DNA of 64,000 nt from Oceanidesulfovibrio indonesiensis. Lineage in GTDB: Bacteria; Desulfobacterota; Desulfovibrionia; Desulfovibrionales; Desulfovibrionaceae. The notes beneath the pieces are model-generated. The model worked only from the letters and a program-made list of their open reading frames with translations, had not been told where the DNA came from and searched no databases. The stretch's first letter is position 1; each line of letters opens with the position of its first letter. Both the position numbers and the translations under genes were made by a program. The stretch lies in contig NZ_QMIE01000017.1 in NCBI RefSeq assembly GCF_007625075.1, positions 1 through 64,000 of the forward strand, in the 5' to 3' direction. This document shows, one piece after another, positions 56,709 through 60,235 of this stretch.

Positions 56709-58448
56709 ATGGACAAGATTCTTCGCATAGACGTCGGTGCGCCAGGTGGACCGAAAGCCACCGTGGAGCCTCTCGGCGATTACGCCGGACTCGGCGGCCG
56801 CGCCATGACCAGCCTGGTGGTCGCCAAGGAAGTCCCGGCAGACTGCCACCCCCTGGGCCCTGAAAACAAGCTCGTCATCTCACCCGGCATCGCGTCCGGT
56901 TCTGCGGCGTCGTCGTCCGGCCGGCTTTCCATAGGCTGCAAAAGCCCCCTCACCGGCACCATCAAGGAATCCAACGCCGGCGGCCAGCCATCCATGTACA
57001 TCGCCCGCCTTGGCTACGCCGCGATCATCATCGAGGGTGAGCACGACAGAAACGCCGGATTCCATAAGATTGTCATCTCGGAGAGCGGCGTCGCTATCGA
57101 GAAGGCCGACGACCTCGCCGGGCTGCGCAACTACGCCACGGCCGAAAAGATCAAGGAAAAGCACGGCGACAAGGTTGCGCTCATCTCCATCGGCACCGCC
57201 GGCGAGATGCGCATGGCCTCTGCGTCCATCGCCTGCACAGATCCCGAGTTCCGCCCCACCCGCCACGCGGGCCGCGGCGGCGTCGGCGCTGTGATGGGCT
57301 CCAAGGGCATCAAATGCATCGTCGTTGATCCCGGCGGCGCCAAAATGCGCCAGCCCGCCAACCCCGACGCGTTCAAAGAAGCCAACCGCAAGTTCGTGGA
57401 AGGTCTGCGCGGCCACGCCGTGACCGGCCAGGGCCTGCCCACCTACGGCACCAACGTGCTCACCAACATCCTCTGCGAAGCAGGCGGCTACCCCACGTAC
57501 AACTTCAAGGAAGGCCAGTTCAAGGGTGCGGAGAAAATCTCCGGCGAGACCCTGGCCGACACCGAGAAGGTGCGCGGCGGCAATCCCACCCACGGCTGCC
57601 ACCGCGGCTGCGCCATCCAGTGCTCCGGCGTGTTCGTGGACAAGGACGGCAACTACGTCACCAAGCAGCCCGAGTACGAGACCGTCTGGGCGCACGGCGG
57701 CAACTGCGGCATCGACGACCTGGACACCATCGCCAAGCTCGACTTCATGGATGACGACATCGGTGTGGACACCATCGAGATGGGCGTGACCATCGGCGTG
57801 GCCATGGATGCCGGCGTCATTCCCTTCGGCGATGCCGAAGGCGCGCTGAAGCTGGTGGAAGAAGTGGGCCAGGGCACTCCCCTGGGCCGCATCCTGGGCG
57901 CCGGCGCCGCCGTCACGGCCAAGTGCTTCGGGCTGGAGCGCGCGCCCGTGGTCAAGAGCCAGGCCATGCCTGCTTACGATCCCCGCGCGGTCAAGGGTGT
58001 GGGCGTAACCTACGCCACAACCACACAGGGCGCGGACCACACCGCCGGCTACGCCGTGGCGACCAACATCCTCAAGGTCGGCGGCGACGTCGATCCCCTG
58101 AGCGCCACCGGCCAGGCCGAGCTCTCCCGGAACCTGCAGATCGCCACTGCCGCGCTGGACGCCACCGGCTTTTGCCTGTTCGTGGCCTTCGCCATCCTCG
58201 ATCAGCCCGAGACATTCCAGGCCATGATCGACACGCTGAACGCCCTGAACGGCACGAGCATGACGGCCGACGACGTCGTCGCTCTGGGCCAGCAGGTGCT
58301 CAAGGCAGAGCGCGAGTTCAACGAGAAGGCCGGCTTCACCAAGGCGCACGATCGCCTGCCGCGCTACTTCTCCCGCGAGAAGCTGCCGCCGCACAATGTG
58401 GTCTTCGACGTGCCTGACGAGGAGTTGGACTCGGTCTTCAACTTCTAA
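56709..58448 (+). CDS. Aldehyde ferredoxin oxidoreductase-family tungstoenzyme
   Basis: 579 aa. N-terminal domain with GGRAMTSLVV and SPLTGTIKESNAGG (tungstopterin-contact region), HAGRGGVGAVMGSKG, then the Fe-S region C297-x3-C301-x3-C305 (GCHRGCAIQC) and C489 (ATGFCLF). The canonical archaeal AOR spacing is CxxC-x3-C, so this is a divergent subfamily whose substrate is not predictable. AAGGAG lies 6 bp before the ATG. Oxidoreductase of the cytoplasm, probably ferredoxin-linked. A terminator follows, before the accessory genes. Confidence 0.93.
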   Translation: MDKILRIDVGAPGGPKATVEPLGDYAGLGGRAMTSLVVAKEVPADCHPLGPENKLVISPGIASGSAASSSGRLSIGCKSPLTGTIKESNAGGQPSMYIARLGYAAIIIEGEHDRNAGFHKIVISESGVAIEKADDLAGLRNYATAEKIKEKHGDKVALISIGTAGEMRMASASIACTDPEFRPTRHAGRGGVGAVMGSKGIKCIVVDPGGAKMRQPANPDAFKEANRKFVEGLRGHAVTGQGLPTYGTNVLTNILCEAGGYPTYNFKEGQFKGAEKISGETLADTEKVRGGNPTHGCHRGCAIQCSGVFVDKDGNYVTKQPEYETVWAHGGNCGIDDLDTIAKLDFMDDDIGVDTIEMGVTIGVAMDAGVIPFGDAEGALKLVEEVGQGTPLGRILGAGAAVTAKCFGLERAPVVKSQAMPAYDPRAVKGVGVTYATTTQGADHTAGYAVATNILKVGGDVDPLSATGQAELSRNLQIATAALDATGFCLFVAFAILDQPETFQAMIDTLNALNGTSMTADDVVALGQQVLKAEREFNEKAGFTKAHDRLPRYFSREKLPPHNVVFDVPDEELDSVFNF

Positions 58449-58461
58449 ACATACAACATCC

Positions 58462-58493
58462 GAAAGGGGGGCCGGCAACGGTCCCCCTTTTTT
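58462..58493 (+). terminator. Terminator between the AOR gene and its accessory genes
   Basis: AAAGGGGG (58463-58470) pairs with CCCCCTTT (58483-58490) around a 12-base loop, then TTT. It lies 14 bp after the AOR stop and 11 bp before the next ATG; it should reduce read-through into the three downstream genes. Confidence 0.8.
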
Positions 58494-58503
58494 CGCGAGC
58501 GCC

Positions 58504-59124
58504 ATGAGCACCACCGACACCACACCCGATTTGGCGACCGCCCTCCCCTGCGAGGCGGGTCCCGAGCTCCTTCCTGCGGCGCTGCCCCTGTTCCAGGGCG
58601 GCATGTTGCTGGACTTCCATACGGGAACCACCGTGGAAGCCCTCATGGTGGAACGTCTCGGGCTCGACCCCGAGTACGCCTTCGGCCGGGTGCAGACCAT
58701 CTTCCTGGACGGACACCCGGTGGACGATCTGAACGACAAGGTCCACAATGGCGCGGTTATCGCCCTGTCGGCCGCACTTCCAGGGCTCATCGGCGCGACC
58801 ATGCGCAAGATGGGTGTGCTTTCGTCGTTTCGGTCCGGCATCAGCCATCGCAACGACGAGGCCCTTACCGCAAGCGGCGACGGCGTGTTCACCCTCAAGC
58901 TGTTCAACGTGATATTGCCGGAGATCGGCCCCGGCCTCCTGGCCCGCGGGGTCAACCTCCCGGCATCGCGCCTCGTGGACAGAATCGCCATGCTGCCCAC
59001 GTCGTTTTTCGAGAGCGAGCCATCCATAATTCTGGAAGGCAGGACCGTGAAGATCGTGCCGGACATGGCAGGCCTGCCCGGCGTGGCCGCGGACCGCCTT
59101 CTGCATCTCGTGGTCAAACAATGA
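58504..59124 (+). CDS. Unknown protein of the AOR locus
   Basis: 206 aa. No signal peptide. The first half (LLDFHTGTTVEALMVERLGL, VQTIFLDGHPVDDLNDKV, ALSAALPGLIGATMRKMG) looks like an alpha/beta fold with a ubiquitin-like flavour; the second half is a separate alpha/beta segment ending in LHLVVKQ. Conserved phrases such as FLDGxPVDDL are ones I associate with unknown proteins in related bacteria, from memory. Weak ribosome-binding site. Co-oriented with the MoaD-like and ThiF-like genes. Confidence 0.7.
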   Translation: MSTTDTTPDLATALPCEAGPELLPAALPLFQGGMLLDFHTGTTVEALMVERLGLDPEYAFGRVQTIFLDGHPVDDLNDKVHNGAVIALSAALPGLIGATMRKMGVLSSFRSGISHRNDEALTASGDGVFTLKLFNVILPEIGPGLLARGVNLPASRLVDRIAMLPTSFFESEPSIILEGRTVKIVPDMAGLPGVAADRLLHLVVKQ

Positions 59125-59182
59125 CGATCTTGTTCTCCGCTGTGGGACAGGGTACCCTGCTCGTCATGGAGGATTGCACCCT

Positions 59183-59410
59183 ATGGCGCTGACTATCAAA
59201 TGCTTTGCCACGTTGTCTTCCTACCAGCCGGAGGACAACGAGAACTATCCGTACATCGAGGGAGATACCGTGACCTCGATCATGAATCGGCTCGGTCTGC
59301 CGCAGGACGAGGTCCACATCATATTCATCAACGGTCGGCACGTGGCCTCCGACGCTCCGGTTTCCGATGGCGACAGGCTCGGCTTCTTTCCGGCTGTGGG
59401 CGGCGGCTAG
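59183..59410 (+). CDS. MoaD/ThiS-family ubiquitin-like sulfur-carrier protein
   Basis: 75 aa. Beta-grasp protein: IKCFATLSSYQPEDNENYPY, TVTSIMNRLGLPQDEVHIIF, DGDRLGFFPAVGGG. The C-terminal GGG is the adenylation/thiocarboxylation end. GGAGG precedes ATG 59183. In AOR operons such a protein (AorD-type) is thought to help tungstopterin assembly. Its stop codon immediately precedes the E1-like gene (TAGATG). Confidence 0.88.
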   Translation: MALTIKCFATLSSYQPEDNENYPYIEGDTVTSIMNRLGLPQDEVHIIFINGRHVASDAPVSDGDRLGFFPAVGGG

Positions 59411-60235
59411 ATGGCCGGCACGTCGCCGGAAACGCTGGCGCGTGAAGCCCTTGGGCGCTTCGCCGGCGGCAGTGCCCCGCTGAATCCGCTGGACGAGCAC
59501 GCCGTGGCTTCCATGTCCGGCCTTTCCCTGTTGGATGTGGAGCGCACCGCCGTGCGCATGGGCATCCTTCCCGAGCGCTACCGCCGGAACACGAACACCA
59601 TCAACCTGGCGGACCAGGCCGTGCTGCTGGATTCCCGCGTCGCCATGGTCGGTCTGGGCGGCCTGGGCGGCTACGTGCTGGAGAGCCTTGCTCGAATCGG
59701 CGTGGGCCGCATACGCGCAGCCGAGGGCGATGTCTTCGAAGCATCCAACCTGAACCGCCAACTCCTTTCCGAAGAGCGCTGGCTCGGCGTGTCCAAGGCA
59801 GCGCCGGCAAAAGAGCGCATTCCGCGCATCAACCCGGCGGTGGAGCTGGAAACAGTCGAGGCGTTTCTGAATGCAGAGACTGTCGGCCCGTTTCTGGACG
59901 GCGTGGACCTGGTGATGGACTGCCTGGGCGGACTCGATTTTCGCGCACCGCTGCAACATGCCGCCGCCGAGGCCGGCATCCCGATGGTCACGGCCGCTGT
60001 TGCCGGTTGGTGCGGCTACGTGGGGGCGGTGGCACCGGGCGCTCCCGGACCGGCGGACCTGCTGCCCCGGAGCGGCGGAGTGGAAGACGAGATCGGCACG
60101 CCGCCTCCCACGGTGATGCTCGCCGCCTCGCTGCAGGCTCGCGAATGCGTGCGCATCCTCCTGGGGGGCGTCGCGGAGCAGTCCGTTCTGCTGTTCGATC
60201 TGGCCGACTCGACCTTCGAGACCATCCGCTTCTGA
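59411..60235 (+). CDS. ThiF/MoeB/HesA-family E1-like adenylyltransferase
   Basis: 274 aa. Rossmann GLGGLGG at 81-87, SNLNRQL at 112-118 with the conserved Arg, and D170 (MDCLGGLDF) near the ATP/Mg site. Where MoeB has zinc-binding CxxC (PCYRC-like) this protein has APGPADLLPRSGG without cysteines, and no second CxxC. An N-terminal 65-residue helical extension precedes the fold. Probably adenylates the neighbouring MoaD-like C-terminus. Confidence 0.9.
   Translation: MAGTSPETLAREALGRFAGGSAPLNPLDEHAVASMSGLSLLDVERTAVRMGILPERYRRNTNTINLADQAVLLDSRVAMVGLGGLGGYVLESLARIGVGRIRAAEGDVFEASNLNRQLLSEERWLGVSKAAPAKERIPRINPAVELETVEAFLNAETVGPFLDGVDLVMDCLGGLDFRAPLQHAAAEAGIPMVTAAVAGWCGYVGAVAPGAPGPADLLPRSGGVEDEIGTPPPTVMLAASLQARECVRILLGGVAEQSVLLFDLADSTFETIRF

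Follow-up and report, generated by a model that had tools for sequence, protein, structure and literature searches.

A partly MoaD-like protein linked to AOR-family enzymes, a candidate assembly factor encoded behind a recurrent terminator-like hairpin in Oceanidesulfovibrio indonesiensis

We describe here a gene cluster of Oceanidesulfovibrio indonesiensis in which an AOR-family enzyme is linked to an unclassified protein of 206 residues, designated U206. The cluster lies in a stretch of 64,000 nucleotides (contig NZ_QMIE01000017.1, positions 1 to 64,000, hereafter the window) and comprises, from 5' to 3' and all on the + strand, the AOR gene, a hairpin, the U206 gene, a MoaD-like gene and an E1-like gene. 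A preliminary description made from the sequence alone had proposed this gene order, including a MoaD-like protein ending in GGG, and family matches together with the coordinates confirmed it. We propose that U206 is a substoichiometric AOR assembly factor, belonging to a cassette linked to the maturation of a single-subunit (Class I-type) AOR, in which a terminator would set the ratio of enzyme to factor. Taken as a whole, and with tungsten as the presumed metal, this reading is given about an even chance of being right. The elements of the cluster are the following.

56709-58448, + strand: AOR-family large subunit (WorL type), 579 aa, from Pfam AFOR_N/AFOR_C matches and alignment to 1aor_A.
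58463-58493, + strand: hairpin and T-run resembling an intrinsic terminator, lying after the AOR stop codon and ahead of the U206 start, from its fold (z -3.1) and its recurrence at homologous junctions.
58504-59124, + strand: U206, unclassified AOR-linked protein, 206 aa, no terminal GG and no Pfam or NCBIfam family, characterized by hhalign, an AlphaFold model and gene neighbourhoods.
58525-58788, + strand: U206 N-half, residues 8-95, MoaD-like (hhalign to the cassette MoaD profile 81-94%).
58780-58842, + strand: best-conserved segment of U206, residues 93-113, PGxxGxxMR...R..I (invariant residues in 73 rows).
58861-59121, + strand: U206 C-half, residues 120-206, probable divergent repeat of the N-half (hhalign N versus C 89-90%).
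59183-59410, + strand: MoaD/ThiS-like sulfur carrier ending in GGG, 75 aa (PF02597, E 4e-10; invariant start Met and GGG).
59411-60235, + strand: E1-like adenylyltransferase of the MoeB/ThiF family, 274 aa, lacking a CxxC zinc motif (PF00899, E 9e-40).

The neighbourhood of U206 was compared in three sets. A search of genome contigs with U206 alone gave 136 relatives, and the counts use the best 80 of these 136 (contig set). This set consists mostly of metagenome-assembled genomes, in which binning errors are possible; the record titles name Desulfovibrio, Geobacter, Desulfobacteraceae, Syntrophobacteraceae, Nitrospirae, Spirochaetes, Acidobacteria, Aminicenantes, Fermentibacteria, Planctomycetota and one Betaproteobacteria bin. 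The organism's own family is represented by 74 loci (family set) and the phylum by a sample of 247 genomes, for which counts are given among the matches listed. An AOR gene adjoins U206 in 67 of the 80 contigs and in 53 of the 74 family loci. AOR, U206, MoaD and E1 occur all near one another in 24 of the contigs, many of which are short, and in 22 of the family loci; MoaD was found near U206 in 46 contigs and 28 family loci, and E1 in 26 and 22, respectively. At the genome level, an AOR (E up to 1e-60) was present in 69 of the 70 family genomes holding U206 versus 42 of the 79 non-holders (Fisher p 9e-12, uncorrected for kinship), and in the 70th the contig with U206 (L108) includes a fragment of an AOR. 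All 31 genomes with U206 in the phylum sample hold an AOR, in 24 of them within 3 kb. The refuting condition named in the preliminary description, homologous AORs without these neighbours, had a mixed outcome. Among the closest homologues of the window AOR the company of U206 was retained: genomes with a near-full-length AOR at least 65% identical to it contain U206 in 26 of 30 cases (27/32 when partial AORs are included). Four of the five exceptions in this tier belong to one family (f38) and the fifth is a contig end.

The AOR gene lies upstream of U206 on the same strand in 53 of the 67 AOR-adjacent contigs and head-to-head with it in 38 of the 53 AOR-adjacent family loci, and several Nitrospirae carry MoaD on the strand opposite to the rest of the cassette. 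Since the linkage of U206 to AOR survives these differing gene orders, it was counted in favour of an AOR-specific role. On a tree of AOR sequences, U206-linked enzymes fall in three separate places, with at least 6 changes (AORs below 300 bits or 500 aa were left out, removal of near-duplicates reduced 168 rows to 133, and contig-edge rows were left out of the change count). The strand arrangement changes only twice on the U206 tree, which has few columns and long branches; both trees are single FastTree runs without approximately unbiased tests. AOR and U206 distances were correlated (r 0.73 over 121 pairs, null maximum 0.12), which could be explained by shared inheritance alone. Two genomes (G016 and G046) hold both same-strand and head-to-head copies of U206. 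By identity, the closest sequences to each copy share its arrangement or lack a complete AOR next to them; by path on the U206 tree one of the four deviates, the head-to-head copy L065, which sits on a long branch nearest to same-strand rows. Taken together, these results suggest that U206 is the AOR-specific part of the cassette, tied to certain AOR types.

The strong hairpin with a T-tail noticed in the preliminary description was borne out by folding. Its stem pairs 58463-58474 with 58479-58490 around a GCAA loop, and the T-run (58488-58493) ends 10 bases ahead of the U206 start codon, in a gap of 55 bases between the AOR and U206 genes. The fold reached -25.6 kcal/mol versus a shuffle mean of -15.5 (z -3.1), with 1 of 200 shuffles equally good. 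A simple terminator scan of the window did not list the hairpin, probably because its A-T pairs consume the T-run. Terminator-like elements were found at 35 of 72 AOR-U206 junctions versus 6 of 360 dinucleotide shuffles, a count that superseded an earlier, looser scan (44/76 versus 29/380 mononucleotide shuffles). Under the same scoring rule, none was found at 37 U206-MoaD junctions (shuffles 2/185) or at 24 MoaD-E1 junctions (shuffles 1/120). In head-to-head loci the AOR 3' end, which points away from U206, has an element in 30 of 40 cases (shuffles 10/200), and AORs without a nearby U206 have one in 16 of 45 (shuffles 13/225). AORs below 600 bits and duplicate junctions were left out of these counts, and the junctions are related, so that the events are not independent. 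As a class, the recurrent terminator after the AOR gene is more than chance, and we infer that transcription actually terminates at the hairpin of the window. The element occurs at the AOR-U206 junction but at neither of the two that follow, which argues against 1:1 expression of AOR and U206, and supports an excess of AOR over the accessory protein and hence an assembly role rather than that of a subunit. It also fits the earlier suggestion that the enzyme is made in excess of its maturation factors.

Judged from its alignments, U206 is an undescribed and widespread protein family. The alignments comprised 53 of the 74 family members (A1), 72 of the 80 contig loci plus the window (A4) and the first 60 of 67 sequences past a length filter (A5). 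Over 73 rows, the best family-model matches were at E 0.012 (Pfam) and 0.027 (NCBIfam), in one member each, and PF02597 matched no member at E up to 0.1; a search of plasmids gave no match to U206. P93, G94, G97 and R110 are invariant in this 73-row alignment, in which no near-invariant cysteine suited to electron transfer was found. At the position of the GG tail that closes MoaD, U206 continues through its best-conserved segment into the C-half. None of 160 members ends in GG (open reading frames of at least 330 aa and weak matches left out), and U206 therefore cannot be a classical C-terminal sulfur carrier.

The N-half of U206 was found by profile comparison to be a homologue of MoaD, with a predicted beta-grasp fold. 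Residues 32-92 aligned to the cassette MoaD profile at 93.5% in hhalign (91% and 81.5% with other cuts), while control profiles of AOR-N, AOR-C, E1 and a neighbouring 194-residue protein (P194, see below) all remained below 1%; these percentages are pairwise figures and not database E-values. The two halves matched each other at 89-90%, and in the AlphaFold model (pLDDT 91, pTM 0.86) they are similar in strand-helix order, so that U206 is apparently built from two ubiquitin-like (beta-grasp-like) halves. The closest solved folds to residues 27-95 are MoaD chains, with a weak VIA-align Z of 4.5 that is nearly tied with unrelated S4/pseudouridine-synthase rows (Z 4.1). Foldseek was never significant for U206 (best E 0.3, a MoaD), and profile comparison with solved chains gave a best E of 0.33. 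The first strand of the C-half was lost when this half was modelled in isolation. Because both have a tandem architecture and similar-looking glycine motifs, homology of U206 to AOR-N was considered; it was rejected at hhalign values of 0.1-0.4%, the level of the controls. The AOR-N module is presented in the available part of PMC1949818 as a tandem beta-grasp of two units that binds metallopterin, with a suggested MoaD-like precursor; in the absence of sequence similarity its likeness to U206 remains an analogy.

The MoaD open reading frame was listed from TTG 59174. Its start is probably the conserved ATG 59183, the Met being invariant in 10/10 rows, and the protein has both the PF02597 match above cut-off and the terminal GG of a sulfur carrier. 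The E1 gene begins directly after the MoaD stop codon, and its product carries PF00899 and a GxGGxG ATP loop, with MoeB as nearest solved relative. It scored below the NCBIfam equivalog cut-offs for ThiF (116.2 versus 275.25 bits) and MoeB (82.5 versus 376.55 bits). CxxC zinc motifs are a trait of MoeB/ThiF E1 enzymes; none is present in the window E1, and they are missing in 42 of the 47 E1s compared.

In the source genome (99.74% complete, 330 contigs), the window MoaD and E1 are the sole above-cut-off matches to PF02597 and PF00899, and the ThiS model recovered only the same MoaD, below cut-off. A one-contig genome of the same genus (G010) likewise has a single above-cut-off match to each, and of the other 22 genomes, 20 have at least two PF02597 matches and 19 at least two above-cut-off PF00899 matches. 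The sole MoaD/E1 pair is a feature of the window's genus and a few others; the family as a whole does not share it. A single MoaE gene lies on another contig, with no MoaD seen in the 14 kb around it, and the 16 kb around each of the two other AORs (on C5 and C8) contain none of MoaD, E1 and U206. With MoaE and these AORs elsewhere, the sole pair probably supplies pterin cell-wide, most likely by feeding molybdopterin (MPT) synthase for the whole cell. The sole-copy claim holds at Pfam sensitivity (PF02597 matched in 11 of 14 control genomes), and a divergent MoaD or E1 missed by the models would weaken the cell-wide reading. Over the whole genomes G000 and G010, no second ThiS or above-cut-off ThiF was found, and thiamine thiazole synthesis may be missing there or run otherwise.

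The window AOR matched AFOR_N (E 4e-58) and AFOR_C (E 1e-77), both past the Pfam cut-off. In the alignment to 1aor_A, the conserved near-pterin residues are Thr248, Glu324, Tyr423 and His444, which align with the four pterin-site residues of P. furiosus AOR named in the accessible text of PMC13328260, and all four Fe-S cysteines are present (C297, C301, C305 and C489). The first three are spaced CX3CX3C versus CX2CX3C in 1aor_A. This spacing is common to 161 of the 168 AORs compared; as a mark of U206-linked AORs it was rejected, being also found in 30 of 37 AORs without U206. No Fe-S small-subunit match was obtained among the 8 window proteins scanned for families, and an Rfam search gave no credible match to a molybdenum cofactor riboswitch upstream.

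In the mechanism that we propose, E1 would adenylate MoaD, and MoaD would carry sulfur to MPT synthase, whose MoaE is encoded elsewhere, for formation of the pterin dithiolene; in the window's genus this pair would probably serve all Mo/W-pterin enzymes. U206 would be a non-carrier MoaD derivative of two beta-grasp-like halves, the tail region running between them, and may bind apo-AOR or the cofactor during insertion, with less than one copy needed per enzyme. The terminator past the AOR gene would set the AOR:U206 ratio. Several observations weigh against this proposal. No AOR adjoins U206 in 13 of the 80 contigs and 21 of the 74 family loci, although five of these 13 contigs (L112, L122, L123, L170 and L186) have less than 1.7 kb of upstream sequence. 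Beyond its closest homologues, the expected company of the AOR was lost: 149 of the 180 AOR genomes of the phylum sample are without U206, and it was found in none of the 25 genomes of the next AOR tier (702-778 bits, 57-63% identity). At 37 of the 72 AOR-U206 junctions no terminator was recognisable, and the looser scan gave none at L038, the one locus of the same genus. The C-half of U206 reached only 0.7% against the MoaD profile in hhalign and, taken alone, had no PDB fold match with Foldseek or VIA-align. Finally, the window's genus has a second U206 that is orphan of AOR (L035 5842-6426, in G000:C5; L039 6730-7413).

Instead, U206 could belong to the mature AOR as a subunit, stoichiometric or regulatory, taking the place of the ferredoxin-like WorS as interface or gate. 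Its co-inheritance by AOR type and the lack of an Fe-S small-subunit match among the scanned window proteins would suit such a role, as would the invariant polar R110, K132 and N135, which are candidate interface residues. However, the terminator-like element separates the two genes in 35/72 loci, AOR and U206 are divergently transcribed in 38/53 AOR-adjacent family loci and distant in others, and no near-invariant cysteine is available for electron transfer, which makes a subunit somewhat unlikely in our view. An explanation bearing on the hairpin is that it acts as an mRNA 3'-end stabiliser or processing site giving unequal AOR and U206 levels, and not as a terminator, the two having an identical sequence signature. 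With 55 bases between the two genes there is hardly space for a separate promoter, and the simple scan found none there, so that read-through or processing is the probable route to U206 expression. The T-run immediately 3' of the stem and the more frequent elements at outward AOR 3' ends of head-to-head loci (30/40), which behave like true ends, speak for a terminator, and the stabiliser seems unlikely.

Dedication of MoaD and E1 to the tungstopterin of the window AOR, as put forward in 2006 for AOR-linked MoaD, agrees with the association and proposal in the available part of PMC1779556 and with the frequency at which MoaD (46 of the 80 contigs, 28 of the 74 family loci) and E1 (26 and 22) occur near U206. 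It is at odds with the sole MoaD/ThiS and sole above-cut-off E1 of the source genome and G010 and with the location of MoaE and two more AORs elsewhere, and we consider it distinctly unlikely; the same findings run counter to the earlier claim that all three downstream genes serve the window AOR. The pair might also modify proteins by SAMP-like conjugation, with U206 as target or adaptor, since Ubls of T. kodakarensis are reported in both sulfur transfer and conjugation (PMC11323500, available text). The 8 window proteins scanned gave no match to a ligase or JAB peptidase, and this possibility appears highly improbable. Very unlikely, too, is a role of U206 as a dedicated W-cofactor insertase forming a new family, in which it would mimic, as a separate two-unit beta-grasp protein, the cofactor cradle of AOR: its invariant PGxxG...R...K..N residues would then hold the (bis-)pterin tungsten cofactor and pass it to apo-AOR. 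On this view U206 and the tandem beta-grasp module of AOR itself would be parallel descendants of one MoaD stock. We retain the substoichiometric assembly factor as our proposal for U206.

Additional observations were made on U206 and its surroundings. The second U206 of the genus (L035, L039) has as nearest relatives the U206 copies beside Desulfovibrionaceae AORs, and the window U206 is nearest, outside the genus, to Spirochaete and Desulfobacterota copies; these differing affinities, over large distances, hint that the window cassette is a mosaic. In some Desulfovibrionaceae (L055, L056, L063 and relatives), an inositol-monophosphatase-family gene lies directly 3' of U206 and is in several cases fused in frame. 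This Inositol_P fusion was rejected as a part of U206, as it represents a downstream gene that is separate in other relatives. In one genus, an AMP-binding (acyl-CoA synthetase type) gene (L044 4954-6639) precedes an AOR-orphan U206; genes of similar size are present in L050 and L078, the family scan having covered L044 only. Upstream of the AOR gene, the window encodes P194 (55920-56504, + strand), a 194-aa protein with no Pfam match and a C-terminal cysteine motif, CGGCFLKSEC. P194 was left out of the cassette: although found in 133 of 148 family genomes, it accompanies U206 in only 11 of the 76 fetched loci.

Clusters of AOR, MoaD and E1 (MoeB) have been in print since 2006 (Iyer, Burroughs and Aravind, PMC1779556), in agreement with the preliminary statement that MoaD- and ThiF-like genes accompany some AOR operons. 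In the neighbourhoods given in the available part of that paper, MoaD strictly adjoins AOR, MoeB is often present as well, and Dvul and Ddes are listed, whereas U206 and an internal terminator are not mentioned in that part, and in our case MoaD and E1 are the sole above-cut-off copies of the genome. The Class I WOR with WorX and thiF (PMC13328260, 2026) similarly has a single large subunit, a ThiS-like protein and ThiF nearby, WorX/ThiF being predicted to act in pterin biosynthesis, but its accessible text describes no second, tandem beta-grasp protein. The operon of the Aromatoleum aromaticum AOR contains two MoaD-resembling genes, encoding AorD and AorE. Both proteins are absent from the purified enzyme according to the available text of PMC6365974, which was counted for the assembly-factor reading. 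Also counted in favour of our proposal was T. kodakarensis UblB, encoded in an operon with E1, for which a role in the GOR tungsten cofactor is reported (PMC11323500, available text). Under chlorate, no gene of D. vulgaris has a stronger effect than aor (DVU1179), and genetics ties it to moaA, moaC, moaE, moeA, moeA-2, moeB (DVU0643), mogA and tupABC, and no U206-like gene is named in the accessible part of that study (PMC10102598). No tandem beta-grasp AOR partner appeared in literature searches of an open-access library, AorD/AorE of A. aromaticum being the nearest case. The known core of the cassette is thus AOR, MoaD and E1, and U206 and the recurrent internal terminator look new.

These results bear on how clusters of this kind are read. 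A MoaD/E1 pair beside an AOR gene may be the only pair of the cell and not private to that AOR, which qualifies a common inference, and the recurrent terminator indicates which product is probably wanted in excess. U206 is conserved, specific to certain AOR types and free of any family model, and it is present in several groups of anaerobes. The available parts of the papers cited here leave the entry of the tungsten cofactor into AOR-type enzymes unexplained, and U206 is a concrete candidate for this step.

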